Shown here one piece after another: positions 23,498 to 56,070 of a stretch of 64,000 nucleotides of DNA. The first letter of the stretch is position 1. Each line of letters starts with the position of its first letter. The stretch is from Brevinematales bacterium (GTDB taxonomy: Bacteria; Spirochaetota; Brevinematia; DTOW01), in contig JAOAHF010000005.1 of assembly GCA_026415355.1 (NCBI GenBank), forward strand, positions 1-64,000, read 5' to 3'. The translations under genes and the position numbers were made by a program. The notes under the pieces were generated by a model. It was not told the DNA's origin and did not search any database. It saw only the letters and a list, made by a program, of their open reading frames with translations.

Positions 23498-23513
23498 AAA
23501 TTATGTTAACTTG
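23498..23513 (+). repeat. Copy 1 of the polar AAATTATGTTAACTTG motif
   Basis: Exact 16/16 match, in the 247-bp divergent region between ftsK (-) and the lptD-like gene (+). On its right the + strand is A/C-rich for about 70 bp (TTTTAGAAAACAAAACAC…); on its left it is G/T-leaning. No other structure is seen in this intergenic region. Confidence 0.8.
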
Positions 23514-23650
23514 TTTTAGAAAACAAAACACTTCAAGAAATCCTAGAATAATACAGACATTTACTTCTAACCTAGACTATTGTTGAGAGAGATTCAGTTA
23601 CTTTATAAATTGAATGAGAGTGGCTAGTTTTTTGATAATTTCTGAGATTT

Positions 23651-26600
23651 ATGCGATTTATTTTGTTAGTATTTTTAATACTTAAATTACTGATTTTTTA
23701 TCGTTTGGATGGTTTCGCTAATTTACTTACTAATGTAGTTTCTAATTCAAGCTTGAATGTTCAAGCAAACGCAGAAGTTTTGTATCCAGGGATTTTGTAT
23801 TCAAAGTCGTATGACATTATTGATATAAGTAATGTGGATTTGAATAAATATGTTGTTGTAAGAAGTTTTGATAGTATTGAGGTTTCTTCAAAGAGTAATG
23901 TTTCAATAATATTTTTCAGAGGTGGTGTAAATGCTGTCTATCAGGATAAAAAACTCAAGTGCAAGTCTATTACTGTCTTTCTTATTGACAATACTGTGAG
24001 AGAGATAGTAGGTGAAGGTGATGTTAGGTTTGTTAGTGGTAAAGATTTGTTTGAAGGAGAAAAGTTCTTTTACGATCTAAGTACTGGTAAGATATCTCTT
24101 TATGAAGCTAGAACAAAGCTTGATGATCAATTTTACTATGCTGATATCATGAAGCAGTTGGATAGTAATAGGTATTTTTTTGAGAATGTGTTTTTCACAA
24201 AGAGTGATTTGCTTTTTCCTACATATAAGGTTAGTGCTTTTAGAGTTTGGTATTATAGAGGAGATTATCTGTTATCTGTTAATAATTCCTATAGTGTTGG
24301 TGTTGGGTCTTTTCTTTATTTTCCTACTTATCTAGAGTTTTATAGGTATACAGATATATTTACAGATTTTGGTGTTGAAAGAAGTATAGGTTTTTACATC
24401 CAGAACACATTCTATCCTAGGAACTGGTGGGGTGAGAGATTTTTTCCGAGACTCAAAGTGAAGTTTGATCACTATGAGAAACTTGGAGAATACTTAGGTT
24501 TTGAAGTACCTAGTATACCTTTGTTATCGAACTTGAATGTGAATCTTATAGTTGATCTTGAGTATGACAAAAAGTATGAACAGAAGGGAAGTTACATAGT
24601 TAATTTCATAGATCAGTATGGAAAAAATGATTATAGGGAGTACAGAACGTTTGGATGGTATTATAACCTTAAGCTTAACTATAGCGTTAGTGGTACTTCA
24701 GTGAGTTTTTCAACTGAAAATTTAAATGATCCGTTTTTACCTTCAAAGTTTTCATCACGTCGTGAGAGGTTTGATGTTAGAAGATTTATTTTTCCTAATG
24801 AGAACCTATTTTGGTCTCTTCCTGGTCCTAAGCAGAGTGTATCAAGAAATTTGAAAATATCTTATCAATATGGTATATCGTCTTTGAATTTAGGTATCGA
24901 TTGGGTTTATCAACTTAGATCTGGTTATAGTATTACTAATACTAATAGTTTTGGTGTTGTTATAGTGAAAAATAAGACTAATAAGTATGAAAATGATTAT
25001 TACAGGTATGATTTACAGAGGTTATCGGGACCATATTTGTATTATTCGGCTAATCTTGGTAATTTTATTTCGTATACATATGAGAAGAGTTATACTAATG
25101 TTTCTTTAAAGGATAATGTTACTCAGCCTAGAATATTCTCGAAATATACTACAAATGAATTTGTGATAGGAACTAACTACTTTAATACAAATCTAATTGT
25201 TGTACAAACGATGTACTTAACAAATTTTATTACAAACCGTGTTGGAAGCAATACAAACTATGTGATTAGTATTATTACAAACATCTCTACTAATTTTTTT
25301 GTCAGCACTAATCTTATTCGTTTTGTTAGCATAACAGATCTTACTAATAACACTAATTTAGGTTCTAATTTTGTGGGTATTAGCGGTACAACTAATTTGG
25401 TACAGTATGGATATTCTGCGAAGTTTATGACAAATATTTCTAGTTTTAAGTGGCTTCAGTTTAGTGTTTCTCCGTCTGCTTCTGTTTCTGTTGTACCTAA
25501 TTCTGTTTATAAGGTAGAGGATGGAACACCGATAGAAGATACTTTTACTCATACTGAGTTAGTCAACATATCTGCTTTATTAGGACTTTTTAATAACGTA
25601 CTTTCGATAAGTTCTTCGACAGGGATAAGAAATAATAATATATGGACTAGGACGGATAACATAAATAGAAAAAAACAAGATGATCTTAATTCTTCGGCTA
25701 CACTGGGTATATCAAGCTCTGCGAGTTTGTCCGACGGATTTTTTAAAGGTACTTTTGTTTTTTTTGAACCTAGAGTTTCTGTATCTCATAATGTATCTTA
25801 CAGACTTACATTACCAAAGTTTTTATCTCCAGAAGAGGATCCTTATGTTGATAATGTAATTGCTCATAATTTATCTGGTAGCGTTTATTTTAGGTTTTTA
25901 GATTTAACCGTGCTTTCGAATTCTCTTCTAAATTTCGTTGGTTTTTCTTCTGTTATACTTTCCACAGCTTTGTCTTATAATTTACTTTACCTGAAGAGTG
26001 AGATTAAGTACAAAGAGGATAAAAGTTATTGGACTAATAAGATTTCCAACCCTATAGGTGTAAATATTTCTTTTGGTCCTTTGTTTAATTATAGTATTTC
26101 TTATAGAGTAAAGCTTTCTAACGATATTGTGGTGTTTGATCCTGTAGGTGTTGGTATGTCGGGTGGTTTATCTGTTAGGGATTTATCATTACTGTATCTT
26201 ATAAAAAAAGTAAATTTCATTAACATAAATTATCAACTTTTCTTTGACTACGTTAATCCAATAAATAATCGTTTTTCTCTTTCTTTTTCTATTGGGGGGA
26301 ATATTGATGAAAATTGGAGTTTTGCTTTATCAACTAGTATAGTTAACAACAAGATTTTCAGATATGTTCCCGAGTATGCTTTAAGATACAATGTACCCCA
26401 GGTTAATATTATTCAGGATATAGTTGATGCTATAAATATTTTTGATATAAATGCCCTTAGAAGAACGCTCTTCAAAAACACGGGGGTTACGATATCTATT
26501 TTAAGAGATCTTTATGATTGGATTGCTTCGTTAAGCGGGGGTATTAGGTTGTATAAGGATGAAGTTAGAAACTTTGCTTTTTTTGAACCTTATGTTAGTT

Positions 26601-26677
26601 TTGAGGTTAAATCTAAAAAGAGTATAGGCATAGATGTACCTCCTATACAGCCGGAGTTGTATAGACTTTTTGAATAA
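23651..26677 (+). CDS. lptD: LptD/OstA-like outer-membrane LPS- or lipid-assembly protein
   Basis: 1008 residues, large as in spirochaetes. A signal peptide (~1-23) is followed by an OstA-like N-terminal domain (~30-180: INTIF-like strands, VNAVYQDKKLKCKSITV, DVRFVSGKDLFEGEKFFYDLSTGKI). That order matches the LptA/LptD jellyroll. A long beta-barrel region then runs to the end. Residues ~510-590 form a Thr/Asn-rich insertion (TNFITNRVGSNTNY, NISTNFFVSTNL) that is probably an exposed loop. LptD inserts lipopolysaccharide at the outer membrane; in spirochaetes lacking LPS the homologue's cargo is unsettled. No Shine-Dalgarno sequence precedes ATG 23651. Its stop directly abuts the convergent HAD gene. 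Confidence 0.8.
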   Translation: MRFILLVFLILKLLIFYRLDGFANLLTNVVSNSSLNVQANAEVLYPGILYSKSYDIIDISNVDLNKYVVVRSFDSIEVSSKSNVSIIFFRGGVNAVYQDKKLKCKSITVFLIDNTVREIVGEGDVRFVSGKDLFEGEKFFYDLSTGKISLYEARTKLDDQFYYADIMKQLDSNRYFFENVFFTKSDLLFPTYKVSAFRVWYYRGDYLLSVNNSYSVGVGSFLYFPTYLEFYRYTDIFTDFGVERSIGFYIQNTFYPRNWWGERFFPRLKVKFDHYEKLGEYLGFEVPSIPLLSNLNVNLIVDLEYDKKYEQKGSYIVNFIDQYGKNDYREYRTFGWYYNLKLNYSVSGTSVSFSTENLNDPFLPSKFSSRRERFDVRRFIFPNENLFWSLPGPKQSVSRNLKISYQYGISSLNLGIDWVYQLRSGYSITNTNSFGVVIVKNKTNKYENDYYRYDLQRLSGPYLYYSANLGNFISYTYEKSYTNVSLKDNVTQPRIFSKYTTNEFVIGTNYFNTNLIVVQTMYLTNFITNRVGSNTNYVISIITNISTNFFVSTNLIRFVSITDLTNNTNLGSNFVGISGTTNLVQYGYSAKFMTNISSFKWLQFSVSPSASVSVVPNSVYKVEDGTPIEDTFTHTELVNISALLGLFNNVLSISSSTGIRNNNIWTRTDNINRKKQDDLNSSATLGISSSASLSDGFFKGTFVFFEPRVSVSHNVSYRLTLPKFLSPEEDPYVDNVIAHNLSGSVYFRFLDLTVLSNSLLNFVGFSSVILSTALSYNLLYLKSEIKYKEDKSYWTNKISNPIGVNISFGPLFNYSISYRVKLSNDIVVFDPVGVGMSGGLSVRDLSLLYLIKKVNFININYQLFFDYVNPINNRFSLSFSIGGNIDENWSFALSTSIVNNKIFRYVPEYALRYNVPQVNIIQDIVDAINIFDINALRRTLFKNTGVTISILRDLYDWIASLSGGIRLYKDEVRNFAFFEPYVSFEVKSKKSIGIDVPPIQPELYRLFE

Positions 26678-27610
26678 TTATGTTTTTACTCTTATGTTCT
26701 CAACGAAGTATAATAAGTCTGATAGAGATGTTACTGTTATTAGTTTGTCTATTTGCTTTAATAGTTTTTCATTTTTAGGTAAGTTAAGGATTTTTCTTAA
26801 GCTTTTTGCGTTCATTTCCTTTAAAAACTTTGATATTATGTTTCTATTCTGTATTTTGATCTTGGTGTTAAAAAGTATGGTTTTTAGATTTAACATTTTG
26901 GCTGGAAGTATGTCATTTTCTACTGAATTTCCGAAGACTATCAAGTTTGTAGTTGGTATCTTTTCTTCTTCTATTATTCTCTGTAATCCTCTTTTTGATG
27001 GTTTCTGGTATGTTGGTGGAAATTCCATAATATCACATATTAGAGAAGATACATTATTACAAATTGCTTGGTACCATATGCTTGCTACTGAAGTATCTTC
27101 AAAATCTTCATTGTTTTCGTTTTGATTTAGAAAGTTATCTTGAAGTGCATATATAGTATCAAAGTACCTGTCTATATCAAGTAATTTTATTCTTTGTTTT
27201 GTGACTCTTGATGGAGAGTTTGTAAAACCTATTATGATTATTCCCATATCTTTGAGTTTTTTTAGAAGTGTTAGTGCTCCATTGAGAAACTTAAGATTTT
27301 TTAATCGCCCTTGGTTGAATTTCATTCGCAGTGTGTTTATAAACGATACTTTTGAATTATTACTGCTGAAAGTGATTTGCTTTTTTAAGTGTTCTTTTAG
27401 TACTTCATAAGTTATGAATAAGTAATCGTTGTTTATGAATGTTTTAGTTGTTAGTTTTTTTATGAAAAATGTTAGGAATTCATCTTTGTTAAGTCCAAAA
27501 TTTTCGTTTACAAATGACCCTATATAGTCTACTGTTTTTAGGTAGTAGTTTCCAAAGTCATATATAACATTATCGATTTCCATTATGATGTAAAGTTTTG
27601 TAGTTTCCAT
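26678..27610 (-). CDS. HAD-superfamily protein with altered nucleophile motif
   Basis: 310 residues from ATG 27610, which has AAGGAGC 6 bp upstream (the frame runs back to 27667 without one). HAD motifs are visible in order. Motif I is YIIMEIDNVIYDFG, with Glu11 where the nucleophilic Asp normally stands and Asp13 kept. Motif II is IIIGFTNSPSR. A Lys lies in YQKPSKRGL. Motif IV is LIVFGNSVENDILPAKMLNLKTIL. The cap (~25-125) is helical. Loss of the nucleophile suggests it does not act as a normal phosphatase. It is divergent from the alcohol dehydrogenase, with 99 bp between the starts. Confidence 0.7.
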   Translation of the reverse strand: METTKLYIIMEIDNVIYDFGNYYLKTVDYIGSFVNENFGLNKDEFLTFFIKKLTTKTFINNDYLFITYEVLKEHLKKQITFSSNNSKVSFINTLRMKFNQGRLKNLKFLNGALTLLKKLKDMGIIIIGFTNSPSRVTKQRIKLLDIDRYFDTIYALQDNFLNQNENNEDFEDTSVASIWYQAICNNVSSLICDIMEFPPTYQKPSKRGLQRIIEEEKIPTTNLIVFGNSVENDILPAKMLNLKTILFNTKIKIQNRNIISKFLKEMNAKSLRKILNLPKNEKLLKQIDKLITVTSLSDLLYFVENIRVKT

Positions 27611-27709
27611 TTTTTGCTCCTTCTGGAGATTATCTTTATTTAGAATAAGAGATGTTTTTTTTTTCAACTTATTTGTTATTATCTTTTATTTTCCTTGATA
27701 ATAGTACAT

Positions 27710-28867
27710 ATGAAATTTATTTCTTTTAGTAAGACTAAAATACTTTTTGATTTATCGAGTTTAGACGATGGAGTTGAGGCATTTGATAAGTATAATAGAT
27801 TTTTGGTGCTTACTGGTAAAAATCACCTTAAGTTTTCAGATGGTTATCAGAAAATAGAGAAGTTTTTTTATTTACTTGGCAAAGAATACACTATTGTATC
27901 AGAGATTACTCCTAATCCTACTACTGAGCTTATCGATAGAATTTATGAACAAGTTAAGGCATATGAATTTGATGTAATAGTTGCGATTGGTGGTGGTAGT
28001 GTAATAGATAGTGCAAAAGGATTATCTCTTAAGATGTCTAATCCGAGAGTTGACATTTGGGATTATGCTGAAGGCAAAGAAACACTTCAAAAGGCCATAC
28101 CCATAATTGCTGTGCCTACTACTGCTGGTACTGGTAGTGAGGTTAATAAAGTAGCCGTTTTAACAAATATTCAAAAAATTCAAAAACGATCTATAAAGAT
28201 GGATGTTTTGTACCCAGAGTATGCTCTTATAATACCATCTATGACTTTAACAATGAATAGGTACTTGACAGGAATTACTGCTGTGGATGCTTTGTCTCAT
28301 GCTATTGAATGTATGGTGAGTAAAAAGTCTAATTTTGTTACACAATCTCTTTCTAGAGAAGCTATAAGGATTATAATTAACAATATATTCAAAGTTTATA
28401 ATAATGGTTCTAATCTAGAAGCTAGAAGAGATATGCAATTTGCTTCTGTTCTTTCTGGTCTTGCAATAGATATTAGCGGAGTAGGGCTTATGCATGCTCT
28501 TGAACATCCTATTAGTGCTAGATTCCCCCATATATCTCATGGTCAAGGGTTAGCAATAGTGTTTAAAAAAGTTGTGGAGCATAGTTTTCTTTTTGCTGTT
28601 GATAGATATAGAGAAGTAGCAGATGCTATGGGAATAAAAGTCAAAGGTAATAGCGACTTTTCTATAATGCACACAATACTTGATGCTATTGAATATTTAC
28701 TTTCATATCTTGATCTAAACAAGAGGTTGTCGGATTTCGGGGTTCAAAAATCAGACATAAAGTATCTGGCTGATGATGTTGTGTCTTATATGACTACTTC
28801 TCTTAGCAATTCTCCTTATGTCCCTTCAAGGGATAGTATTGAGAAAATATACAAAGAAGTTTTGTAG
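27710..28867 (+). CDS. Iron-containing (group III) alcohol dehydrogenase family protein
   Basis: 385 residues from ATG 27710; a TTG at 27695 is in frame but less likely. The NAD-binding motif VIVAIGGGSVIDSAKG (~residues 85-100), VPTTAGTGSEV, and the metal-site region DALSHAIECMVS with GLMHALEHPISARFPHISHGQGLA are diagnostic. These enzymes reduce aldehydes or oxidise alcohols with NAD(P) and Fe(II) or Zn; substrate cannot be told from sequence. It is convergent with the MEMO-like gene, 1 bp between stops. No Shine-Dalgarno sequence is seen; GATAAT lies shortly upstream of the start, which could make a leaderless or near-leaderless mRNA. Confidence 0.9.
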   Translation: MKFISFSKTKILFDLSSLDDGVEAFDKYNRFLVLTGKNHLKFSDGYQKIEKFFYLLGKEYTIVSEITPNPTTELIDRIYEQVKAYEFDVIVAIGGGSVIDSAKGLSLKMSNPRVDIWDYAEGKETLQKAIPIIAVPTTAGTGSEVNKVAVLTNIQKIQKRSIKMDVLYPEYALIIPSMTLTMNRYLTGITAVDALSHAIECMVSKKSNFVTQSLSREAIRIIINNIFKVYNNGSNLEARRDMQFASVLSGLAIDISGVGLMHALEHPISARFPHISHGQGLAIVFKKVVEHSFLFAVDRYREVADAMGIKVKGNSDFSIMHTILDAIEYLLSYLDLNKRLSDFGVQKSDIKYLADDVVSYMTTSLSNSPYVPSRDSIEKIYKEVL

Positions 28868-28868
28868 T

Positions 28869-29711
28869 TTAGTACATTATTGCTGATAGGTAGCCTACAA
28901 CATAGTCTTTGGTACCGCTAGTGTCTCCAGAATTTAATAGCTTTAGTACGTTTATCTCTTTGTTTTTTGTTTTTGCCATATACAAGAAGGTTCCGAGAGG
29001 GCCTGCACCACATGCTTCTATTTTCTTTTGGTTTAGCATACTTATGTATGCTTCAAAATCTTTTTCTCTTAGTATCTCTATTAATCTATTATCGATGATA
29101 TATGCTTCTTTGTATGGGTGGTAGTGTGATAAATCTGTTGATACAACTATTAGTATTTTTAGATCCTTAAATTTTTCGAAAATCTCGTCTAGAACTTCAG
29201 TCATTGTCGTCATAAATATTCTGTTTTCTTCACCGTAGAGTATAGGTACTATTTCAATTTTACCGTCAGATATGTAGTGCAGAAATGGTAGTTGTACTTC
29301 TAGCGAGTGTTCTTCATCTTGGACTTTATAGGATACTTCAAATCCCTGTTTGTTTCTTAAAAATTCAGTAATATCTTTGTTAACTTTTAGAGGGCCAAGT
29401 GGTGTTTGATAATATTTCCTATCATCAACTATGAAAAAGTGTAAATAGAAATGATGACTTGGAGCAAGTATTATTGCAACATCATAGCTTTTATTTCTAA
29501 TAGCTTTGTAAGAGTGAGCTGCTACTATACCTGAATACTTATAACCAGCGTGTGGCGATATTATTGCTATTATTTTTTTCTCTTCAACTTCCTTCGGTAT
29601 ATCTGATTCTTCTATGTAGTTTCTAATTATTTCTTCAAGTTTAAATTTTTCAGATGGATAAAAAGATCCAGCATAATTTGGTTTTCTACAACTTTTTCCA
29701 TCATCTAACAT
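28869..29711 (-). CDS. MEMO1/AmmeMemoRadiSam system protein B family
   Basis: 280 residues. The opening RKPNYAGSFYPSEKFKLEEII, then ISPHAGYKYSGIVAAHSYKAI, ILAPSHHFY, EVQLPFLHYI and VVSTDLSHYHPYKEA are the MEMO family landmarks, including the conserved His residues that resemble a dioxygenase metal site. In many prokaryotes it is encoded beside an AMMECR1 protein and a radical-SAM enzyme; neither is next to it here, so it is an orphan. The cellular function of the bacterial family is not established. The next upstream region contains polar motif copy 2. Confidence 0.88.
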   Translation of the reverse strand: MLDDGKSCRKPNYAGSFYPSEKFKLEEIIRNYIEESDIPKEVEEKKIIAIISPHAGYKYSGIVAAHSYKAIRNKSYDVAIILAPSHHFYLHFFIVDDRKYYQTPLGPLKVNKDITEFLRNKQGFEVSYKVQDEEHSLEVQLPFLHYISDGKIEIVPILYGEENRIFMTTMTEVLDEIFEKFKDLKILIVVSTDLSHYHPYKEAYIIDNRLIEILREKDFEAYISMLNQKKIEACGAGPLGTFLYMAKTKNKEINVLKLLNSGDTSGTKDYVVGYLSAIMY

Positions 29712-29822
29712 AAATTAAATATACAAATTTGAAAACATTATGTCAATATTTTAGTTGATATAAATCACTCAATATAATGTGACACTTTTTTTAATTTACT
29801 GAATTTCTTTGTATGTCTATAC

Positions 29823-29838
29823 AAATTATGTTAACTTA
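29823..29838 (+). repeat. Copy 2 of the polar motif
   Basis: 15/16 match (last base A). It is followed by a strikingly A/C-rich + strand from about 29845 to 29900 that continues mildly into the start of the next gene. A small inverted repeat GTGCT/AGCAC around an A tract lies at 29841-29862. The gap lies between two divergently transcribed genes. Confidence 0.75.
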
Positions 29839-29935
29839 TGTGCTTTAAAAAAAAACAGCACAAAAAACAGCAACCTCCAAACAACCATTTACAAAATAGA
29901 AAAATTACTAAGAATCCATATAAAATATATCTACA

Positions 29936-30685
29936 ATGGATGTTTACAAGATACGTGAAAGAATAAACAACATAAAAAAAATGTTAGAAAGCGCGCTAGC
30001 ACTTGCTAAAGATCCAAGAAGACAAGAGAGTATAAAGGCATCTCTTGTTTTAGTTATGAAGGATTTAAAGAAAATAGATGAAGGTACATTTACTGAAGAA
30101 GATCTTAAGAAATATGAATTTAGTACTAGAGAAGACAAAATCGAGCAGGTTGAAATCTCTTTTGATATACTTGAAACAATACCTAAAATTTCTCCATCTC
30201 CACACATAAGTGACAAGGAATTGGTTGATGTAAATAGTTATATGGATTTTTTCGAGAGAGAATACTTACCTTTATTTACTACTAAGTATCTTAAAGTTAT
30301 TTTTTCTTATCAACACAAACTAGATTACTTCTTTTCTGAGTTTAGGAGAGTTCAAATGTTGTTTTCGAAATATGTTGAATTGATTGAAAATATTAGTAGA
30401 AGTGATAGTGATGCTTATATCTCTGAGATGCAGAAGTTGAGGAGGAAGAGGTTTAGAGAGCTTTTGTTTAACATAGACAAATTTTTTGAGGAGATACAAG
30501 AATTCTTAGAGAGTATTCTTGAGAATCCAACTTCTGATGGTATATTACTAGAACCACATTTTTTGATAGAGTTTGATTCTGATCAGAATAAAGTTATAAA
30601 CAATATAGAAGCAATCGATGCTATAAAGGATATGTACAAGTTTGTAATTGAATTTAGAAACTACATAGGGGTAGTAGGAGTTTAG
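29936..30685 (+). CDS. Helical protein of unknown function, upstream of bactofilin
   Basis: 249 residues, no signal peptide or membrane segment. Mostly charged helices: MDVYKIRERINNIKKMLESALALAKD at the start, a linker around residue 80-100 with FDILETIPKISPSPHIS, then long helices (KLRRKRFRELLFNIDKFFEEIQEFLESILEN). I recognise no family. It ends 9 bp before the bactofilin gene, which has AGGAGG, so the two are co-transcribed. A role in anchoring or regulating the bactofilin cytoskeleton is a fair guess from context only. No ribosome-binding site is seen; TAAAAT lies 10 bp before ATG. The first 30 codons are A/C-rich, next to motif copy 2. Confidence 0.65.
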   Translation: MDVYKIRERINNIKKMLESALALAKDPRRQESIKASLVLVMKDLKKIDEGTFTEEDLKKYEFSTREDKIEQVEISFDILETIPKISPSPHISDKELVDVNSYMDFFEREYLPLFTTKYLKVIFSYQHKLDYFFSEFRRVQMLFSKYVELIENISRSDSDAYISEMQKLRRKRFRELLFNIDKFFEEIQEFLESILENPTSDGILLEPHFLIEFDSDQNKVINNIEAIDAIKDMYKFVIEFRNYIGVVGV

Positions 30686-30694
30686 GAGGTTAAG

Positions 30695-31081
30695 ATGGCT
30701 GATGTTAGGACAACAGTTTATAATACAGTAATAGGTGAGAATTCCTTCTTTGAAGGAAGGTTTATGGTCAATGGTAGTATTAGGATTGATGGGAAATTTG
30801 AAGGTGAGATGTTGAAGGTATCTCAGGTAACTATAGGAGTTAAAGGTAAGGTCAAAAGTAATATATCTGCTATGAGTGTTATTGTGGAGGGTATTTTGAT
30901 TGGTAATATAGATGCGAAGGTTAGAGTTATGCTTTTACCAACTAGTAGAGTTTATGGAGATATCACAACACCTGAAATAATAATCCAACAAGGTGTGATA
31001 TTTGAAGGGAAGATTAAGATAGTTCAGGATAGAAGTATATCTGTTAGAGATGAAATAGAGAGAATATATAGAGGAGCATGA
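30695..31081 (+). CDS. Bactofilin
   Basis: 128 residues. The bactofilin beta-helix signature is clear: TVIGENSFFEGRF, VNGSIRIDGKFEGEM, then repeating VTIGVKGKVKSNISAMSVIVEGILIGNIDAKVRVMLLPTSRVYGDI. These small proteins polymerise into filaments without nucleotide and in helical bacteria are linked to cell shape and peptidoglycan patterning. The short N- and C-terminal tails are normal. AGGAGG lies before ATG 30695. Its stop overlaps the hisC start (ATGA), implying translational coupling, although no functional link with histidine synthesis is known. Confidence 0.93.
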   Translation: MADVRTTVYNTVIGENSFFEGRFMVNGSIRIDGKFEGEMLKVSQVTIGVKGKVKSNISAMSVIVEGILIGNIDAKVRVMLLPTSRVYGDITTPEIIIQQGVIFEGKIKIVQDRSISVRDEIERIYRGA

Positions 31082-32136: not shown

Positions 32137-32179
32137 GTAATTACGATGTTAGAGAGTAAGTATTTTTTAGTAAGTTTTT

Positions 32180-32195
32180 AAATTATGTTAACTTG
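32180..32195 (+). repeat. Copy 3 of the polar motif
   Basis: Exact 16/16 match in the hisC-nadA gap, followed by TTTGT and then a long + strand run made almost only of A and C (about 32201-32258). The A/C excess extends into the first ~120 bp of nadA. Confidence 0.8.
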
Positions 32196-32277
32196 TTTGT
32201 AAAAAAGAAAAAAACAACAAAACAAAAACCAAACTCAACCTTGAAACCAAAAAAAAAATTAGTTAAATATTTATCAT

Positions 32278-33246: not shown

Positions 33247-33251
33247 GTGGT

Positions 33252-41099: not shown

Positions 41100-41720
41100 T
41101 TAGGTTATTTGTTCAAAGACTTGCTTTTCGTAGTTGTAATTCAATATTTCGCCAGTTGATATTACATAGTACCAACCGTATATCTTGAGCTTTCCGTTTT
41201 GGACCTTTTCCTTTATGAAAGGATATGTCATAAGATTTTCTAATTGTTTTACTATGTTTAACTGTTCAGTGGTAATTGCAAGTTTGTGAGGATCATCTTT
41301 TACTATTTCCCGTGCTTTTTGGCCAACATCTTTCGATAGAGATACCCATTTTTTTAAATTTGGCTTATCGTTGAGTTTTTCTTCTTCTAGATGTAATGCT
41401 GCACATCCTCCACAATTGTGGTGACCACATACAACAATATTTTGTACTTCTAGAACGTTTACAGCGTATTCTATTGCTGATGATACAGTAGCTGATATAT
41501 CACTATTATCGTATTTCGGAACTATATTTGCGACGTTTCTGATTACAAATAGCTCTCCTGGGTTTGAATTTGTTATTAGTTCAGGTATAACTCTACTGTC
41601 AGAACAACTTATGAATAAAGTATGAGGCTTTTGACCTTTGCCTAACTCTTCAAATAGATTCTTTAGGTTGTTTAGCTTTTCAGCACGAAATGACTTATAT
41701 TTCTCTATTATATTAACCAT
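41100..41720 (-). CDS. Beta-class carbonic anhydrase
   Basis: 206 residues from ATG 41720 (the frame extends to a TTG at 41783 with no support). Zinc ligands appear as Cys and Asp in FISCSDSRVIPE and His/Cys in VVCGHHNCGGCAAL. VIRNVANIV and GWYYVISTGEILNYN are also family features. It hydrates CO2 to bicarbonate, supplying carboxylases. The gene is 18 bp downstream of mtaB on the same strand, so co-transcription is likely although no functional link is known. No clear ribosome-binding site. Confidence 0.93.
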   Translation of the reverse strand: MVNIIEKYKSFRAEKLNNLKNLFEELGKGQKPHTLFISCSDSRVIPELITNSNPGELFVIRNVANIVPKYDNSDISATVSSAIEYAVNVLEVQNIVVCGHHNCGGCAALHLEEEKLNDKPNLKKWVSLSKDVGQKAREIVKDDPHKLAITTEQLNIVKQLENLMTYPFIKEKVQNGKLKIYGWYYVISTGEILNYNYEKQVFEQIT

Positions 41721-46058: not shown

Positions 46059-46086
46059 ATTTCCGATAATAAATATTATGTTAACT
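46059..46086 (+). other. dif-like XerCD recombination site (includes polar motif copy 4)
   Basis: A 28-bp site: left arm ATTTCCGATAA, 6-bp centre TAAATA, right arm TTATGTTAACT. Compared from memory with known dif sites, the right arm differs from the E. coli XerD arm TTATGTTAAAT at one base. The whole site agrees with the B. subtilis dif at 23 of 28 positions. Motif copy 4 (46073-46088, 15/16) forms its right half. It lies between a + strand gene end and pstC, in the part of the window where composition suggests the replication terminus. Confidence 0.6.
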
Positions 46087-46116
46087 TGAGTAAAAACCTG
46101 AAAATTTTGCCATATT

Positions 46117-46166
46117 TTTACAATCACTTTACAATTATTTTACACTAGGCAGAAATAATTTTTACA
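46117..46166 (+). promoter_or_regulatory. Pho-box-like direct repeats upstream of pstC
   Basis: TTTACA at 46117, 46128 and 46139, each separated by exactly 5 bp (11-bp period), with a fourth TTTACA in phase at 46161 ending on the A of the pstC ATG. This is the layout of PhoP/PhoB binding boxes. AATAAT at 46154-46159 could be the -10 box. Confidence 0.6.
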
Positions 46167-47104: not shown

Positions 47105-47127
47105 TGGAATTAACAAGGAGGTAAATT

Positions 47128-48078: not shown

Positions 48079-48092
48079 GTGGAGGTAATACT

Positions 48093-48878
48093 ATGAAGAA
48101 TAACAACAGAAATAATAATACTAATGAAATACTATCAACTCATTCTTTGAATTTCTGGTACGGTGATATCCATGTACTCAAGAATATTAACATATCCATA
48201 AAGAGAAACAAAATCACAGCTCTAATAGGCCCATCGGGTTGTGGGAAAACAACGTTACTTAGAACTTTCAATAAAATGTACAAACTTTCAGAAGGAGTAA
48301 AAATAGAAGGAAAGATAATATTTGAGGGAATGAACATTATAGAGGATGGAGCTATTGATGATTTTGAGCTGCGAAGTAAAATAGGTATGGTATTCCAAAA
48401 ACCAAACCCTTTTTATACATCTATCTATAACAACGTTGCGTTTGGTCCTAGACTAAGAGGTATAAAGAGAAAAAGTGACCTGGATGAAATAGTTGAGAGA
48501 TCTTTGAGAAGAGCTGGTATTTGGGATGAAGTAAAAGATAGACTTAATAAACCAGCAATATCTCTATCAGGAGGTCAGCAGCAAAGAGTATGTATAGCAA
48601 GAGCTTTAGCAGTACAACCAGAAGTTTTGCTTATGGACGAACCCACTTCAGCTCTAGATCCAGCATCTACAGCAAAAATTGAAGAACTTATCATCGATTT
48701 GGCCCAAAACTATACAGTTGTCATAGTAACCCACAATATGCAACAGGCATCAAGGATATCAGACTTTACAGGATTTATGCTGAATGGGGAACTAATTGAA
48801 TTTGGTCCAACAGAAGATATATTTACTACCCCAAAAGACGAAAGGACAGAAAACTATATAACAGGAAAATTTGGATAA
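48093..48878 (+). CDS. pstB: Phosphate ABC transporter ATP-binding protein PstB
   Basis: 261 residues. Walker A is [17 protein letters not shown], the Q-loop [26 protein letters not shown] is PstB-specific, the signature is [18 protein letters not shown] and Walker [13 protein letters not shown]; the switch His is in [10 protein letters not shown]. All catalytic residues are present. It energises the PstC/PstA channel. GGAGG precedes ATG 48093. phoU starts 17 bp after the stop. Confidence 0.97.
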
Positions 48879-48895
48879 TTTTTAGGAGGATTTTT

Positions 48896-49546
48896 ATGAT
48901 AAAACTTGAAAAAGAAGTTAGTCAAATTGAAGAAGATATTGTAAATACAACTTCAATAGTTACTGACATGTTATATCAAGCAATAAGAGGATTGAAGGAA
49001 ATGAACAAAGAGACTTGTGAAGGAGTGATCAAATCTGATGAAAAGGTTGATAAGATCGAAGTTGAAATCGAAAGCAAGATAATAAGAGCTATAGCACTTT
49101 ACCAGCCTGAAGCAGAAATGTTAAGAAAACTCGTGATGGCAGTTAAGATAAACAAGGACATTGAGAGAATAGGAGATCATGCTGTTAATATAGCCAGTAA
49201 TACCATAAAGTCTCTCAGCCTAGGTAAGATAGAAATACCTGAAGAAGTCGACAGTATGTTTAACAACCTCATAATAATGATGAATAAAACGGTTAGAGCA
49301 TTTATAGATCATAACTCAGAGATGGCTAAAGAAGTTATTACAATGGATAAGGAAATTGATAACCTGAGAAATAAGGGAGTAAAAAGGATAATGCAAGAAA
49401 GCCAAAGAGACAATAGTACTGAAAGAGCAATATTACTAATTCTTGTCTTTAAGGACCTTGAGAGAATAGGAGATTTGCTTACTAACATATGTGAAGATAC
49501 AGTCTATATAATAGACGGTAAAATCATAGAACATAAGTACAAGTAA
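48896..49546 (+). CDS. phoU: Phosphate transport/regulation protein PhoU
   Basis: 216 residues in two repeated three-helix PhoU domains: MLYQAIRGLKEMNKETCEGVIKSDEKVDKIEVEIESKII in the first and KTVRAFIDHNSEMAKEVITMDKEIDNL in the second. Each is followed by a metal-binding (D/E)xERIGDxxxNI motif (KDIERIGDHAVNIA, KDLERIGDLLTNIC). PhoU restrains Pst and PhoR signalling. AGGAGG precedes ATG 48896. Neither phoR/phoB nor pstS is in the window. It ends the operon and is convergent with the next gene. Confidence 0.95.
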   Translation: MIKLEKEVSQIEEDIVNTTSIVTDMLYQAIRGLKEMNKETCEGVIKSDEKVDKIEVEIESKIIRAIALYQPEAEMLRKLVMAVKINKDIERIGDHAVNIASNTIKSLSLGKIEIPEEVDSMFNNLIIMMNKTVRAFIDHNSEMAKEVITMDKEIDNLRNKGVKRIMQESQRDNSTERAILLILVFKDLERIGDLLTNICEDTVYIIDGKIIEHKYK

Positions 49547-49610
49547 TCATTACTTACAGATATTTAGTTGAAAAAACTTGGATAATTTGACCTATGAATA
49601 ACACCTAGGT

Positions 49611-49637
49611 ACCTACGACATGTTAGGCTACCTACGA
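49611..49637. repeat. Direct repeat ACCTACGA x2
   Basis: ACCTACGA at 49611-49618 and again at 49630-49637, a 19-bp period (about two helical turns), preceded by ACACCTAGGT. It lies between the convergent ends of phoU and the LPP20-like gene, where no promoter is expected. Function unknown. Confidence 0.35.
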
Positions 49638-49675
49638 AATTATTGTATGTTACGATAGTAAACTTTGCACTGGAT

Positions 49676-51103
49676 TTAGAATTCCATTTCTTCAATTACT
49701 TCGCCAATATTAGTAGGTAAGTTTGAATTCATAGCACTCAAACTACTGCTGGACAAGTTTTTTGACAGAGAGTTAATGAGGTTACCTTCCTCGTCGTATA
49801 CCTCAACAGATATCTCGTACTCTACTCTATTTATCTTCTCGTTACCAAAGTCGATGACTTTCTGTTTTGGTTCAGAAACTTTCACAAGTACTATAACTGC
49901 ATCTTTAGCAACGAACTTTCTTATCTTTTGAACGTCATCACTGTTTATTGATGTCGAAGTAGGCTTAGAAACTTTATAGCCTTTCTTCATTACGTAGCTA
50001 CTTAACGATGAAGACAAAGTACTATCGTAGAGATATCCACTATTATCCTTATCTTTCAATGATATGATAACTGCATTTTTAGCTTTTGTCTCACTCATGT
50101 ACCAATTTGCTTCCGATTGAACAAGTCTGCCTTTAGTTATAAGTTTGGCAGCATCTTGTTTTGTTTCTCTACTTATGCTTGCCAGAGAAGTGAAATCGAG
50201 ATTCAAGAATGCCTTTATTGAGAGTTTCTTATTGTCAAATCTCAACACTCTAAACACATTACAGGTGACAAATCCATTTTCATCACTAGTAGCTGAAGTG
50301 CTTACTTCGGCACCTCCTGAGGAAACTCTAAATATAACGTTAGCATCTCTGATGGGTACTTTCTTACCTTCCGAATTATAGAACACCCTAAACTTTATCT
50401 CACCCTTGTCCCCTACTCCAACCTTTTTGTTACTACCTTCAACTACCTCAATAGAGAGTCTTGATATTATATCGTCTATCTTCTTTATTATTTCTGGGTA
50501 AAACATTTTCCTTTCTTCAACATTCACAGAATTCTTAGCAGCTAGCGTATATGAGGCTATTGCATTGAGAAGTTTTCCTTCTCTTACGAACATATCACCT
50601 TCTTCTATAAACTTATCAACAGATCTTATCATGTCTTTATACATTTGTTCTATCCTTTGTCTTTCTTCTAATATTTTAGATTCTGGAAACTTGACCAGAA
50701 GATAAACTACATAACTACCATCTTTGTCTTGATACGAAACTTCCTCATCAGGCGCTGGAACGAAGATTCTCGCTTTGCCTTTAACCGTTACTTCATTTCT
50801 AATGTTCTGGGTTACGTCAATCTCGCCACTTTGTGATGATATTACAGTCTCACCCTTTGTTTCAGCAGTTACATCGACTAGTATAGATTGAACTACTTTG
50901 GATTTTATATCTTCAATAGCCAAATTTCTTGCTGAAACTATATCTTTGCTAATTCCCATACCCACAAAATAAAAGTCTTTCCCTTTCTTGAAAGTAGGAA
51001 TTGAAATCCAATCAGGCATCTTCTTCTGTGCTTTAAGATAAGAACTCGAAAAGAATAGTAGGCTAAAAATGCAAAGAAAAATTAGAAAGTTTCTAAACAT
51101 CAT
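49676..51103 (-). CDS. Exported LPP20-like protein with Ig-like domain
   Basis: 475 residues. A signal peptide (~1-26, ending YLKAQ) is followed by an LPP20/FlgT-like domain (~28-150: PDWISIPTFKKGKDFYFVGMGISKDIVSARNLAIEDIKSKVVQSI). Next come a helical linker (~155-215) and a bacterial Ig-like domain (~225-310: GEIKFRVFYNSEGKKVPIRDANVIFRVSSGG, TSATSDENGFVTCNVFRV). The last domain (~335-475) has alternating strands and helices. LPP20-type domains in periplasmic proteins are linked to flagella or envelope assembly in some groups, but the function here is unknown. Two ATGs (51103, 51100) follow GGAGG. A terminator separates it from the lipoprotein gene upstream. Confidence 0.65.
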   Translation of the reverse strand: MMFRNFLIFLCIFSLLFFSSSYLKAQKKMPDWISIPTFKKGKDFYFVGMGISKDIVSARNLAIEDIKSKVVQSILVDVTAETKGETVISSQSGEIDVTQNIRNEVTVKGKARIFVPAPDEEVSYQDKDGSYVVYLLVKFPESKILEERQRIEQMYKDMIRSVDKFIEEGDMFVREGKLLNAIASYTLAAKNSVNVEERKMFYPEIIKKIDDIISRLSIEVVEGSNKKVGVGDKGEIKFRVFYNSEGKKVPIRDANVIFRVSSGGAEVSTSATSDENGFVTCNVFRVLRFDNKKLSIKAFLNLDFTSLASISRETKQDAAKLITKGRLVQSEANWYMSETKAKNAVIISLKDKDNSGYLYDSTLSSSLSSYVMKKGYKVSKPTSTSINSDDVQKIRKFVAKDAVIVLVKVSEPKQKVIDFGNEKINRVEYEISVEVYDEEGNLINSLSKNLSSSSLSAMNSNLPTNIGEVIEEMEF

Positions 51104-51142
51104 AACCTCCTTTCATAACTGTATTTCATAAAGTAAAAATTC

Positions 51143-51160
51143 AGGGGGATACTACCCCCT
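51143..51160 (-). terminator. Terminator after the lipoprotein gene (minus strand)
   Basis: On the minus strand AGGGGG, loop TAGTAT and CCCCCT, followed by GAATTTTT. It lies 13 bp beyond the lipoprotein stop and 40 bp before the next start, so it probably lowers read-through between the two genes. Confidence 0.6.
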
Positions 51161-51172
51161 TTTATGTTAAAA

Positions 51173-51856
51173 CTACATAGCTTCAGACATCTGTTGTATA
51201 AGCTTATCCATTTTCTCCCTTGCTTTTTCTGGTATATCAGGTTTTTGTTGCTTAGTTTGTTGCCAAGCACCAGAAAGCATTTGCCTCCATGTTCCGAGAT
51301 CCATCTGATATCTTATAGCATAACTGAAGTATTTCTCTCTAGGGGTATCACCCAAGTATTCCTGTAATTCTGCCCAGTATTCGTTTACTGGTACAAGTCC
51401 ACTAACCTTAACGTTCTTGGCAAGCAATCCTATTGCTCCCTGTATGTATTGTGCAAAGGTATCCTGATCACCCTCAAATACTTTTGCAGCTTCGGAAGTT
51501 ACCAATGTTTGGACTGACTCAGCTACCCTTGCATTTAAGTTTAACTTTGCGTTCTGTTTTGCAAGGTCAAGGTTTTTTTGTCTTTCTATAGCCACAAAAT
51601 AAACAACCTTTTTGTTGTCCTGATCAGTACCAAATTGTAATAGGTTGCCTTGAAGAGCATTCAAAAGCCACTCTGGTAGTGGCATAGTTCTACCAGTAAA
51701 GGCACTTTGTTGATCTTGAATAATCTCATACCTAACTTTTGATTCTTGAGGTTTTGTAACTGGTTCAGGACCTTTCTGTGGTTGAGGACAGCCCCCTAAA
51801 ATTACCACAGATGTGGTAAATACTGTAAACACTATAAGTGAGATTAGTTTTTTCAT
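51173..51856 (-). CDS. LPP20-family lipoprotein
   Basis: 227 residues. A lipoprotein signal is clear: KKLISLIVFTVFTTSVVILGGC, with the lipobox VILGGC giving Cys23 (quoted here as its last part VILGGC). A Pro-rich spacer (PQPQKGPEPVTKPQES) is followed by the LPP20-like domain (~60-190: LPEWLLNALQ, VVYFVAIERQKNLDLAKQNAKLNLNARVAES) and a Gln/Lys-rich tail. It has the same domain type as the protein encoded next on this strand, so the pair may act together in the outer membrane. AGGAGG lies before ATG 51856. Confidence 0.75.
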   Translation of the reverse strand: MKKLISLIVFTVFTTSVVILGGCPQPQKGPEPVTKPQESKVRYEIIQDQQSAFTGRTMPLPEWLLNALQGNLLQFGTDQDNKKVVYFVAIERQKNLDLAKQNAKLNLNARVAESVQTLVTSEAAKVFEGDQDTFAQYIQGAIGLLAKNVKVSGLVPVNEYWAELQEYLGDTPREKYFSYAIRYQMDLGTWRQMLSGAWQQTKQQKPDIPEKAREKMDKLIQQMSEAM

Positions 51857-52063
51857 ATATACCTCCTAATACAAATATCATAATTCACTATACTGATTTT
51901 TTCAAGTTAGCTTTGGTGTATAGTAATCAGATCAGGTTATACTATGATCGCAATGTAAAGAATTTTTTATGTGGTAAGTTTACTACTGTTTAACAAAGCA
52001 TTCTTAGTTTGTTTAAACTTGAAAACATCATATATAATCCTTAAGACTGCGAGGTACTACTGT

Positions 52064-53125
52064 ATGAATAGGTTTCTGCAAATAATATTTCTTTTCTGTC
52101 TAGTCGCTTTTATCTTTATGTCCACAGATTCATATTCTCAGTATAATTCCAAGAGGTACCCTTTGGATAGGGTGATTGCTGTTGTTGGAAATAGAGAAAC
52201 TATAACATTACTTGAACTAGCTAAAAGGAAAGAGTTTCTACGGAATAAGCTTTCTACTCTTGGTGAAACTAACCAAATATCTGATAAGGATGTTATGATG
52301 AAATTAATCCTAGAAAAAATGGTACTAGTTATAGGGAAAGAGAAAAACATAGTGTTACCAGAGGATGAAAGAATTGTTGCTAGCATAACAGATGACGAGA
52401 TAAAAAACTCCCTCAGAAAGGAAAAAAGATTCTACCATGATTACTTAGGAGAAATAAAACAGCAATATATTCTTTCAAGGCTTATTACTTCTGATGAGAA
52501 GCTAAAGAATTACCTGTCAAGAGAACCAGATGACTCCGAAGTAAACAAGTTAATTGAGGAGTTGTACGAAAAGAATAAACAGAACGTCAAGTCAATTAGA
52601 GTTAGTTTCTTGTCGATAGTTGTAAACTTACCAAGAGATCTCTCTCTTAAAGAAGAAAAGGAAATAGAATCTGTGTTCTCAGAGATAAGCAACCTTGTTG
52701 AATTAAGGAAATATCAACAAGCAGTATCAGTGGCGGAGAGAAAGTTAGGAAAATACTTATTTAAAGATGCAACTATGTTTGTTGAGAAGCCAGTATCCAT
52801 ACAATCTCTAGCAAAAAATGGCTTTCCTGTTGAGTTGTTGGGGGGATTGGTTAATATAAAAGTAGGACAAACGCTACCCTACCCTATAAAAGGTCTTAAG
52901 ATAAAAGGTAATGATTATGCTTTTGCTCTTAAGGTTATTTCAAGAGAAGAAGGATTCATCAGTAAAGATGAGTTCAAAGAAACTTTGCTCTTGGATCCTA
53001 ACTTTAAAAAACAAATAGTAGCTAGGATACAAGATGACAGAATAAGGGAATGGATTGTTAGCACGTTTAAAGAGTATGGTTTTTCAGTTACGTTTTTAGA
53101 CAAAAATTATGAAATCAAGATATGA
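52064..53125 (+). CDS. SurA-like periplasmic chaperone
   Basis: 353 residues from ATG 52064, chosen because a normal signal peptide follows (RFLQIIFLFCLVAFIFMS) and GAGGT lies upstream; the frame is open from 51971. The N-terminal chaperone part reads YPLDRVIAVVGNRETITLLELAKR, typical of SurA (VVG/D…ITxxEL). A helical region follows. A domain around 190-310 (IRVSFLSIVVNLPRDLS, GLVNIKVGQTLPYPIKGLKIKGNDYAFALKVISREEG) corresponds to a single parvulin-like domain, with weak conservation of the catalytic site. It would guide barrel proteins such as those at 0.4, 2.2 and 23.7 kb. It overlaps rdgB by 4 bp. Confidence 0.72.
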   Translation: MNRFLQIIFLFCLVAFIFMSTDSYSQYNSKRYPLDRVIAVVGNRETITLLELAKRKEFLRNKLSTLGETNQISDKDVMMKLILEKMVLVIGKEKNIVLPEDERIVASITDDEIKNSLRKEKRFYHDYLGEIKQQYILSRLITSDEKLKNYLSREPDDSEVNKLIEELYEKNKQNVKSIRVSFLSIVVNLPRDLSLKEEKEIESVFSEISNLVELRKYQQAVSVAERKLGKYLFKDATMFVEKPVSIQSLAKNGFPVELLGGLVNIKVGQTLPYPIKGLKIKGNDYAFALKVISREEGFISKDEFKETLLLDPNFKKQIVARIQDDRIREWIVSTFKEYGFSVTFLDKNYEIKI

Positions 53126-53730
53126 AACTTACTAGGATACTTGTAGCAACTTCTAATAAAGGTAAGTACAATGAAATAGCTGATATAATCTTGGGAGTAT
53201 TACCTGGTATAGAAATTCTCTCTCTGTCTGATTTGCCTAAAATACCTCCCCCAGTCGAGAATGGTAAAACTTTTTTTGATAATGCACTTATAAAGGCAAA
53301 GTATTACTATAGTGCTTACAACATTCCTTTAATATCGGAAGACTCAGGTTTGGAAGTTAATGCTTTGAATGGGGAACCGGGTGTTATGTCTGCAATATAT
53401 GCTGGTGAGAACTCAACGCAGGAAGATTTAATAAGAAAATTACTCAAAAATATGGAAAACAAGACAGACAGGAGTGCAAAGTTTGTCTGTTTAGCTGTTT
53501 TTATGTATGGTAAGGACAGATATTTGTTTTCAGAAGGTATTGTTAGAGGTAAAATAGCTTATGAACCTAGAGGACAGTACGGTTTTGGGTATGATCCTGT
53601 TTTTATACCTGAGGGGTATGATAAAACATTTGCTGAATTGGGTAGTAGTGTTAAGAATAGAATAAGTCATAGGAGGGAGGCTATTCTGGGTTTGTTGCTT
53701 GGGATGAGGGATTTGGGTTGTTTTTTGTAG
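53122..53730 (+). CDS. rdgB: XTP/dITP pyrophosphatase (RdgB/HAM1)
   Basis: 202 residues. LVATSNKGKYNEIADI at the start (SNxxK motif), PVENGKTFFDNALIKAKYY, SEDSGLEVNALNGEPGVMSAIYAG and YGFGYDPVFIPEGYDKTFAEL are diagnostic, ending with ISHRREAILGL. It removes non-canonical purine triphosphates. It overlaps the SurA-like gene through ATGA. The last ~100 bp of the gene are extremely G/T-rich on the coding strand (encoding LLGMRDLGCFL), part of the compositional switch at 53.75 kb. No terminator hairpin is seen after it, only T-rich sequence. Confidence 0.95.
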   Translation: MKLTRILVATSNKGKYNEIADIILGVLPGIEILSLSDLPKIPPPVENGKTFFDNALIKAKYYYSAYNIPLISEDSGLEVNALNGEPGVMSAIYAGENSTQEDLIRKLLKNMENKTDRSAKFVCLAVFMYGKDRYLFSEGIVRGKIAYEPRGQYGFGYDPVFIPEGYDKTFAELGSSVKNRISHRREAILGLLLGMRDLGCFL

Positions 53731-53773
53731 TTTTTGTTTTTTTTCTTTTTTTGGTGTTTTTTTGTTACACAAA

Positions 53774-53789
53774 CAAGTTAACATAATTT
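53774..53789 (-). repeat. Copy 5 of the polar motif, at the strand-composition switch
   Basis: Exact 16/16 match on the minus strand (CAAGTTAACATAATTT on +). The + strand to its left, including the end of rdgB, is strongly G/T-rich; to its right it becomes A/C-leaning and stays so to the window end. An ATTGTTGATAA stretch on the minus strand, 8 bp before the conserved arm, faintly resembles a XerC arm. Confidence 0.8.
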
Positions 53790-53898
53790 TAATTTTATCA
53801 ACAATTCACCTGCAGACTTCCGGTACACCATTTAGGACTATTTTTGAAATAGTAAAGGTTAGACATTGATAATTCTAGCTTGCGTAGGAGACAATAAG

Positions 53899-55959
53899 AT
53901 GAAGAAAGATTTTCTTTTTGAAATTGGAACAGAAGAAATACCTCATGATTATCTATCAAAATCTCACATACAATTTGAAAAAATATTCATAGAAACGTTA
54001 TCTTCATACAACTTAAACTATGCAAAGATATACACCTATTCTACTCCTAGGCGTCTAGCAATACTAATAACGGATCTTGAAGAAAAACAAGAAGACAGGA
54101 AAATAATCAAAAAAGGACCTCCTAAAAACATAGCATACCACGAAAATGGGGAACCAACACAAGCTCTTAAGGGTTTCTTATCAACAGTATCATCCTTTGA
54201 AGGCCAAATAAAAATACTTAAAGAGGGAGAAAAAGAATTTGTATTCTTCGAAGGAATTCAAAAAGGAGAATACACAGAAGAAATACTCAAAAGAGAAATT
54301 CCAAGAATAGTAAAGAGTATAGAATTTCCAAAAACGATGAGATGGTCAAACGTAGATTTCAGATTCGTAAGGCCAATTAGATGGATTGTATGCCTATTTG
54401 GAGATAAAATCCTAGACATTGAATTAGCAACAATAAAATCCTCAAACATATCTTATGGACACAGATTCATAGGAGAAAATGTAGAAATAAAAAATCCAAG
54501 AGAATACGAAGAACTTCTAGAGAATAAAGGTAAAGTCATCCCATCACCTAGTAAAAGAAAAGAAGTAATACTTAAAGATGTTGAAAAAATTTCAAAAGAA
54601 CTTAACTCGGTACCTGTCTTATCCGAAAAATTACTTGAAGAAATCGTAAATTTAGTAGAATACCCAAAAACGACAATAGGTACATTTGACGAAAAATTTC
54701 TTGAAATACCAAACGAAATACTAATATCAGAAATGGTAGAACATCAAAAATTCATCCCATTAACCCGAGATTCAAAACTCATAAATAAATTCATAATAGT
54801 GGTAAATACTCAACCAAATGAAAAAATAGTAAAAGGCAATCAAAAGGTTATTTCAGCAAGGCTTAATGATGGTAAATTCCTCTACGAGGAAGATACCAAG
54901 AAGTCCATAGAATTCTTTATCCAGAAAACTAAAGAACTAATATTCTTTGCAGGACTTGGAACAATATATGACAAAATGAAAAGAATGGAAAAGCTATCCC
55001 AAAGAATAATGGAAAAACTGAAAATTCAGGATGAGAAAATAAAAAGAGCATCAAGTATATGTAAGTTTGATTTAACAACAGGAGTAGTATACGAGTTTCC
55101 TGAACTACAAGGTATAATGGGATATTATTACTCTTTGAACTTTGGAGAAGAAGTAGAAGTAGCAAATTACATAAAAGAACACTACAAACCTATATCATCA
55201 GACGATGAATTGCCATCATCACTAGGAGCAGGAATCGTATCAATAACAGATAAATTAGATAATATATTCTCACTATATTCAGCAGGTAAAAAAGTATCAG
55301 GATCAAGTGACCCTTACGGTTTGAGAAGACAACTAGTCGGCGTATCAAGAATAATGATAAATTACAATCTAGATATTGACATAGTAGACATATTTACATC
55401 ATCAAAAGAAATATATGAAGCATTCTTCACAAAGGAATATAAAGAAATAACAGAAGACCTTAAGCAATTTGTAAACGCAAGACTCAAAGGATTATTTAAG
55501 GAAATGGGTTTTAGAACAGATGAAATAGAAGCAACAATAAAAGCAACAACTAATCCATACGATGCTTACTTAAGAGTGAAAACTATCAATAATTTCAGAA
55601 ATAAAGGTGAGTTCGCAAACGTCGGGATACTCTTCAAACGAGTCAGAAACATTCTAAACGAAGCTAAATTTACTTCCCCTACTCCACTAAACTACGATAT
55701 ACTAACTCCAGAAGAGAGAGAATTGTATAATCTAATATTATCTAAGAAAGACACTGTGTCTAATTACTTGGTAACTAAAAATTACGAGGAACTACTCAAA
55801 ACATTACTTGAATTCCAAAAGCCTATACACAATTTCTTTGAAAAAGTTTTCGTAATGGACAAAAATACAGAAATAAGGCAAAACAGATTATCACTTTTGT
55901 ACCAGCTCTACAAAATGTTCGAAGACTTCATAGATTTCAACATTATGGAACTAGCGTGA
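53899..55959 (+). CDS. glyS: Glycyl-tRNA synthetase beta subunit
   Basis: 686 residues from ATG 53899 (AGGAG upstream; a TTG at 53866 is in frame). KDFLFEIGTEEIPHDYL is the GlyS opening. YSTPRRLAILI, FPKTMRWSN, RFVRPIRWIVCLFGD, SYGHRFIGENV, GTIYDKMKRMEKLS, FPELQGIMGYYYSLN and SDPYGLRRQLVGV are all family marks. A C-terminal DALR-type domain follows. It pairs with the alpha subunit GlyQ to charge tRNA-Gly. glyQ is usually adjacent but is not here, so it must lie elsewhere. Coding strand is notably A/C-rich compared with genes to the left. Confidence 0.96.
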   Translation: MKKDFLFEIGTEEIPHDYLSKSHIQFEKIFIETLSSYNLNYAKIYTYSTPRRLAILITDLEEKQEDRKIIKKGPPKNIAYHENGEPTQALKGFLSTVSSFEGQIKILKEGEKEFVFFEGIQKGEYTEEILKREIPRIVKSIEFPKTMRWSNVDFRFVRPIRWIVCLFGDKILDIELATIKSSNISYGHRFIGENVEIKNPREYEELLENKGKVIPSPSKRKEVILKDVEKISKELNSVPVLSEKLLEEIVNLVEYPKTTIGTFDEKFLEIPNEILISEMVEHQKFIPLTRDSKLINKFIIVVNTQPNEKIVKGNQKVISARLNDGKFLYEEDTKKSIEFFIQKTKELIFFAGLGTIYDKMKRMEKLSQRIMEKLKIQDEKIKRASSICKFDLTTGVVYEFPELQGIMGYYYSLNFGEEVEVANYIKEHYKPISSDDELPSSLGAGIVSITDKLDNIFSLYSAGKKVSGSSDPYGLRRQLVGVSRIMINYNLDIDIVDIFTSSKEIYEAFFTKEYKEITEDLKQFVNARLKGLFKEMGFRTDEIEATIKATTNPYDAYLRVKTINNFRNKGEFANVGILFKRVRNILNEAKFTSPTPLNYDILTPEERELYNLILSKKDTVSNYLVTKNYEELLKTLLEFQKPIHNFFEKVFVMDKNTEIRQNRLSLLYQLYKMFEDFIDFNIMELA

Positions 55960-56054
55960 GAATCACCCATATAGTATTTTGAAAAGCAAAGATGGGACTT
56001 GAGTGTCCGTTTTGTGTTCCTGGGTGTTCCTTGGTTGTGGAGTTTTTACACAGA

Positions 56055-56070
56055 AAAGTTAACATAATTT
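56055..56070 (-). repeat. Copy 6 of the polar motif
   Basis: 15/16 match on the minus strand, in the gap between convergent glyS and pyrD, so it cannot be a promoter for either. The ~60 bp on its left (55990-56050) are G/T-rich on +, opposite to glyS and the surrounding region. No hairpin terminator was found in this gap. Confidence 0.78.

Follow-up and report, generated by a model that had tools for sequence, protein, structure and literature searches.

The window analyzed here, a stretch of 64,000 nucleotides at the start of a 124-kb contig, comes from the draft genome (80 contigs, 1.76 Mb) of a Brevinematales bacterium, which we denote G000 and which belongs to a family of five sequenced genomes, the four relatives being G001 to G004. 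The window contains a chromosomal dif site of 28 bp (46059..46086, plus strand), read as ATTTCCGATAA-TAAATA-TTATGTTAACT, that is, a XerC arm (46059-46069, ATTTCCGATAA), a 6-bp centre (46070-46075, TAAATA) and a XerD arm (46076-46086, TTATGTTAACT), together with solitary copies of its XerD half on both sides. To the left, on the plus strand and facing dif, lie L3 (AAATTATGTTAACTTGTTTTA, 23498..23518, 22.6 kb away, PWM score 25.5), L2 (AAATTATGTTAACTTATGTGC, 29823..29843, beside a Memo-like gene, 16.2 kb away, PWM score 18.1) and L1 (AAATTATGTTAACTTGTTTGT, 32180..32200, 13.9 kb away, PWM score 32.5). To the right, on the minus strand and again facing dif, are R1 (AAATTATGTTAACTTGTTTGT, 53769..53789, 7.7 kb away, with the best PWM score in the genome, 35.2) and R2 (AAATTATGTTAACTTTTCTGT, 56050..56070, 10.0 kb away, PWM score 23.9), followed by one more half-site on the same strand at contig position about 82467-82468, 36.4 kb from dif. 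L3, the outermost left site, adjoins a gene (20941..23403, minus strand) for an FtsK/SpoIIIE-type DNA translocase with alpha, motor and gamma domains (Pfam FtsK_SpoIIIE 1.4e-61, FtsK_gamma 1.4e-30); FtsK is the expected partner of Xer at dif.

The earlier note on this DNA had described six copies of an intergenic motif, AAATTATGTTAACTTG, all of which were found again in the sequence at the coordinates and on the strands claimed: three exact (23498, 32180 and, on the minus strand, 53774) and three with one change (29823, 46073 and, on the minus strand, 56055). Examination of the gene context confirmed that all copies are intergenic and that those at 53774 and 56055 (R1 and R2) are aimed at the 3' ends of plus-strand genes. 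The six copies are real, but the set needs two corrections: the copy at 46073 is not solitary but forms the XerD arm of a full dif site that had escaped notice, and further copies lie at contig position 82468 (minus strand) and on another contig, C15. The sequence identifies the motif core as the XerD arm of dif, with the copy at 46073 belonging to dif itself, and Xer-related sites, which had been offered only as an alternative, are what we find at this locus. The core, TTATGTTAACT, is identical in 11/11 positions to the XerD arm of the genome's own dif at the solitary sites. The pattern TTCCNATAA-N6-TTATGTTAA matched perfectly at exactly one position in every one of the five family genomes, and once in most members of the class, whose sister families have dif as well. 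Only 46059-46086 combines a XerC arm, a 6-bp centre and a XerD arm, singly in the chromosome, as dif is defined, and in G000, G001, G002 and G003 alike the site precedes the same ABC-transporter operon. Its layout is that of the published dif sites of Escherichia coli (GGTGCGCATAATGTATATTATGTTAAAT) and Bacillus subtilis (ACTTCCTAGAATATATATTATGTAAACT), and the core differs at a single base from the XerD arm of each species (TTATGTTAAAT in E. coli, TTATGTAAACT in B. subtilis) (PMC3025954). A distant genome of the same phylum, G049, carries, besides a full dif, oppositely oriented pairs of dif-like sites about 190 bp apart that resemble pdif modules (G049:C1 137677/137865, 696210/696400 and 901831/902021).

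Alignment of 30 solitary sites from the five genomes produced the consensus (A)AAATTATGTTAACTTGTTTGT(T), in which bases 0-11 are near-invariant and the GTTTGT extension is strongly conserved; in these 30 sites, no XerC arm was found, and there is no conservation from -17 to -6 or upstream of about -5. Most of the solitary sites continue into an A/C-rich, G-poor tail of about 20-70 bp, such as that of L1 (32201..32260, plus strand), which is missing from several others; the median A+C fraction of the 54-bp tail is 0.76 (30 sites), compared to 0.46 in upstream control regions. What dif and the solitary sites have in common is the XerD arm plus the adjoining A-rich end of the central region, whereas the solitary sites, several per genome, have no XerC arm, and dif lacks both the GTTTGT extension and the tail. 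The strand bias that the earlier note had seen over 60-200 bp of flanking DNA is real, but it reduces to this shorter tail and is absent at some sites. As a mutational signature of wrong-way replication forks it was rejected, given that the flank, only tens of base pairs long, is too short, too irregular and at several sites not there at all; the tail is more likely to be part of the element than a trace of replication. Some of the solitary half-sites form tandem pairs in the same direction, 79-120 bp apart (G001:C13 17478/17563 and 41425/41545; G003:C10 1455/1534).

By count alone, the motif does not stand out in the window, where a search allowing up to three mismatches returns seven copies against 3.8 expected, an unremarkable number. 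At one mismatch or fewer, the whole 1.76-Mb genome contains 10 matches, seven of these on the 124-kb contig, and no match to the reversed pattern; along the contig, the strands of the copies read + + + + - - -, the last being at about 82467. A PWM was built from the four relatives only and run over 1.56 Mb of the 1.76-Mb G000 genome, with the reversed PWM as the control. Seven sites outscored every control, six of them flanking dif within 36.4 kb (binomial probability about 7e-8) and the seventh located on C15, on the GC-skew-positive strand. Of the matches to the extended motif with at most two mismatches, those surrounding dif number 6/6 in G001, 6/6 in G003 and 5/6 in G000, where one more dif-flanking site, at 29826, has three mismatches. 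The innermost solitary copies around dif in G000 are at 32183 (plus strand) and 53775 (minus strand). Orientation does reverse between them, but the reversal, which had been placed at about 53.75 kb, is centred on dif; nor do the cumulative skew maxima coincide exactly with 53.75 kb, the T-A skew peaking at 48.0 kb, the keto skew at 53.8 kb and the GC skew at 55.5 kb.

The same arrangement is seen in the relatives. Relative to dif, the solitary sites of G001 are located at -21.2, -17.3 and -17.2 kb and at +6.7, +6.8 and +10.3 kb, and G003 has three on each side, all within 23 kb; across the three genomes with this 3+3 arrangement (G000, G001 and G003), 18 of the 18 sites face dif, with a two-sided sign probability of 8e-6 that applies to sites of incomplete independence because they include three tandem pairs. 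In the fragmentary genomes G002 and G004, 12/12 sites are on the GC-skew-positive strand, that is, they point away from the origin. The stranded genome scan thus shows copies clustered around dif, with opposite orientations on its two sides, and not evenly spread, which lends strong support, relatives included, to the proposal of a polar terminus-organizing motif inverted about the terminus. The best explanation of this genomic pattern is that the solitary half-sites serve as markers of the replication terminus, arranged around one dif site.

Solitary sites are present in all five family genomes, and among 60 relatives scanned with the 16-mer, more than two matches were obtained only in these five. 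In the complete genome G006, the one sister-family genome examined in full, the core is not clustered at dif and there is no array. Two viral contigs with exact 18-mer matches show no similarity to the family genomes and were taken as chance hits. Within the family, position and direction relative to dif are kept and the neighboring genes are mostly not common between genomes; several of the G001 sites adjoin genes whose G000 orthologs sit, without such a site, on the origin-bearing contig C3. One site is common to two genera, being adjacent to the Memo-like gene in G000 (29826) and to its ortholog in G004 (C100). Elsewhere in G000, a weak motif copy, AAATTATGTTAACTCG, directly precedes a CRISPR array (repeat GTTTCAATCCCTGAAAGGGTAGGTAAAAAC; L025:6239 onward, C13:66239-66739), inside which the contig ends.

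Each of the genomes encodes exactly two tyrosine (Xer) recombinases, one best fitting the XerD model and the other the XerC model; the XerD model scores 322.7 bits, slightly below its cut-off of 329.6. SMC, ScpB and ParB are also present, and two parS-like sites adjoin parB. The smc gene of G001 is itself located in the terminus (C13 41623-44979, L114), between the solitary half-sites at 41425/41545 and 45036. In G003, a Xer recombinase gene (C10 443-1378, L115), orthologous to the XerC-like gene at C5:114.5 kb of G000, has a pair of solitary half-sites in tandem directly after it.

Half-site identity, clustering, polarity and encoded machinery can all be read from the genomes, and taken together they suggest, with a confidence just above even, that the solitary sites constitute a polar XerD-binding array comparable to the SMC-unloading sites (XDS) of B. 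subtilis, which Karaboja et al. (2021, Mol Cell) reportedly described as bound by XerD. From the half-sites, we infer that XerD would bind them alone. SMC-ScpAB, loaded at parS near the origin, would travel along both arms and reach the sites from the TTATG side, where XerD would release the arriving complex as B. subtilis XerD does at its terminus sites. With several sites on each arm, release would be more likely, and the fixed polarity would allow XerD to distinguish complexes that are coming in from those that are going out; this polarity is probably set by the GTTTGT extension and the tail, through an accessory contact or a bend. Published accounts report that B. subtilis relies on XerD, acting via XDS, to unload SMC at the terminus (PMC10945525, PMC12322038, PMC8357415, PMC13342612). 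Because the 6-bp extension and the tail lie beyond the 11-bp XerD arm and do not belong to dif, another protein may bind the solitary sites as well, or in place of XerD.

A further occurrence of the core bears on this reading. Close to the GC-skew minimum, a conserved intergenic element (G000 C3:124840-125400; L020:4840-5400) contains a single copy of the 12-bp core. The element encompasses TTGTGCRT-type repeats and repeated ACCAAAATATTTTGGT palindromes, is located 21 kb from parB and is probably oriC. This element was identified in G000, G001, G002 and G003 (counterparts at L163 about 16955, minus strand; L164 about 10079, plus strand; and L123 about 8611, minus strand), each holding one invariant TTATGTTAACTTTGTGCRT, the core of the terminus sites, followed by a TTGTGCRT box where the terminus sites have GTTTGT. 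Given that the core lies in the putative oriC, terminus unloading cannot be its role there, which counts against the SMC-unloading reading, as does the lack of an array in G006. XerD may act at the origin as well, or else a second factor may read the core.

Among the alternatives, a replication fork trap, the interpretation put forward in the earlier note, is unlikely. Under this scenario, polar sites bound by XerD or by another protein would admit forks to the terminus and halt those leaving it, with dif between the innermost opposing sites. Compatible with this are the two inverted groups of polar sites, three to an arm, whose innermost members flank dif, an arrangement like that of the E. 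coli fork trap, and also the skew maxima between or near the innermost sites, although GC-skew profiles do not reliably separate genomes with and without fork traps (PMC10331603). A further point in its favor is the odd tail, which sits on the outer face of the sites. However, the profile search of G000, G001 and G003 detected no Tus or RTP homolog, in agreement with the earlier note (no match to PF05472 or PF02334, with the E. coli and B. subtilis controls matched), and the core is the XerD arm, which is not known to play a part in fork arrest. Of the original interpretation, the terminus-organizing polar motif is strongly supported, and the fork trap is unproven.

A reading that spans both possibilities, which we regard as tentative and rather doubtful, is that the XerD half-site, the new 3' extension and the A/C-rich tail jointly form a terminus boundary element that would be read directionally, either as a polar SMC-unloading gate or as a Tus-independent polar barrier, acting on machines that come in from the origin side or on forks leaving the terminus. 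If true, the idea might also cover oriC, in which four genomes conserve one copy of the core.

A role in FtsK/Xer dimer resolution or terminus anchoring, whereby XerD bound outside dif would concentrate XerD, or stop or load FtsK, near dif, appears improbable. The FtsK encoded beside the outermost left site does have a gamma domain, and the sites face dif, the same direction in which KOPS lead FtsK (PMC13342612), but the strong extension that is present in the sites is absent from dif, and about seven copies are far too few for KOPS-like orienting sequences. Still less credible, to the point of being quite improbable, is a transcription factor site or promoter class of a regulon that chances to sit near the terminus. 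A downstream gene on the same strand was found at 21 of the 29 scorable sites, often 45-175 bp away; nevertheless, eight sites face 3' ends, the downstream genes differ between genomes, and the intergenic context (divergent, tandem or convergent) is that of the background (16:8 against 50:25, odds ratio 1), and promoters would not all face dif on both arms. The promoter or regulon reading was rejected for the sites as a class, in line with the statement of the earlier note that these are not ordinary promoters; the preservation of position and direction relative to dif, with a mostly changing gene context and a background-like intergenic one, argues instead for a chromosome-scale function. Finally, scars of mobile elements integrated by XerCD (IMEX-type or pdif modules), another suggestion of the earlier note, can be virtually dismissed: the core is a Xer arm, but the sites have no XerC arm, no match to the central hexamer and no element between them, their polarity is fixed, and they recur at different loci in related species.

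For the preferred reading, a polar XerD array that releases SMC, the broader context is that XerD-dependent SMC unloading has already been shown in B. subtilis. About three dif-facing half-sites per side, maintained in an uncultured family despite differing neighbors, amount to strong evolutionary evidence for a selected terminus function and, equally, that the direction of the sites matters. The array provides a signature by which similar sites could be sought computationally in other phyla, and it offers a clean test of a SMC gate against a fork trap.

Comparison with known systems places the solitary sites closest to XDS. The Tus-Ter and RTP-Ter systems are similar in that polar sites have opposite orientations on the two sides of the terminus, the innermost ones enclosing dif, but here neither Tus nor RTP was found in the three genomes searched and the core is the XerD arm; a likeness of the motif letters to Ter would presumably need a 2-bp gap. 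The matS-MatP system and KOPS similarly provide landmarks that distinguish the terminus or point to it. However, matS is a palindrome with copies scattered across hundreds of kilobases, and KOPS are distributed along whole arms, whereas the sites described here are non-palindromic and close to dif; with about seven copies of a motif that is non-palindromic overall, the MatP-like macrodomain signal suggested in the earlier note does not hold, as judged on the motif, and seven sites in 1.56 Mb, six of these within 36.4 kb of dif, lack the frequency and the whole-arm distribution of KOPS. With XDS, in contrast, the sites have in common that they are XerD halves of the host's own dif, concentrated near the terminus with several around dif (in G001 and G003 as well), in a host that has XerD, SMC, ScpB, ParB and parS-like sites. 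The strict dif-ward polarity is a feature of the sites described here, and what sets the solitary sites apart from XDS is the 6-bp 3' extension along with the A/C-rich tail.
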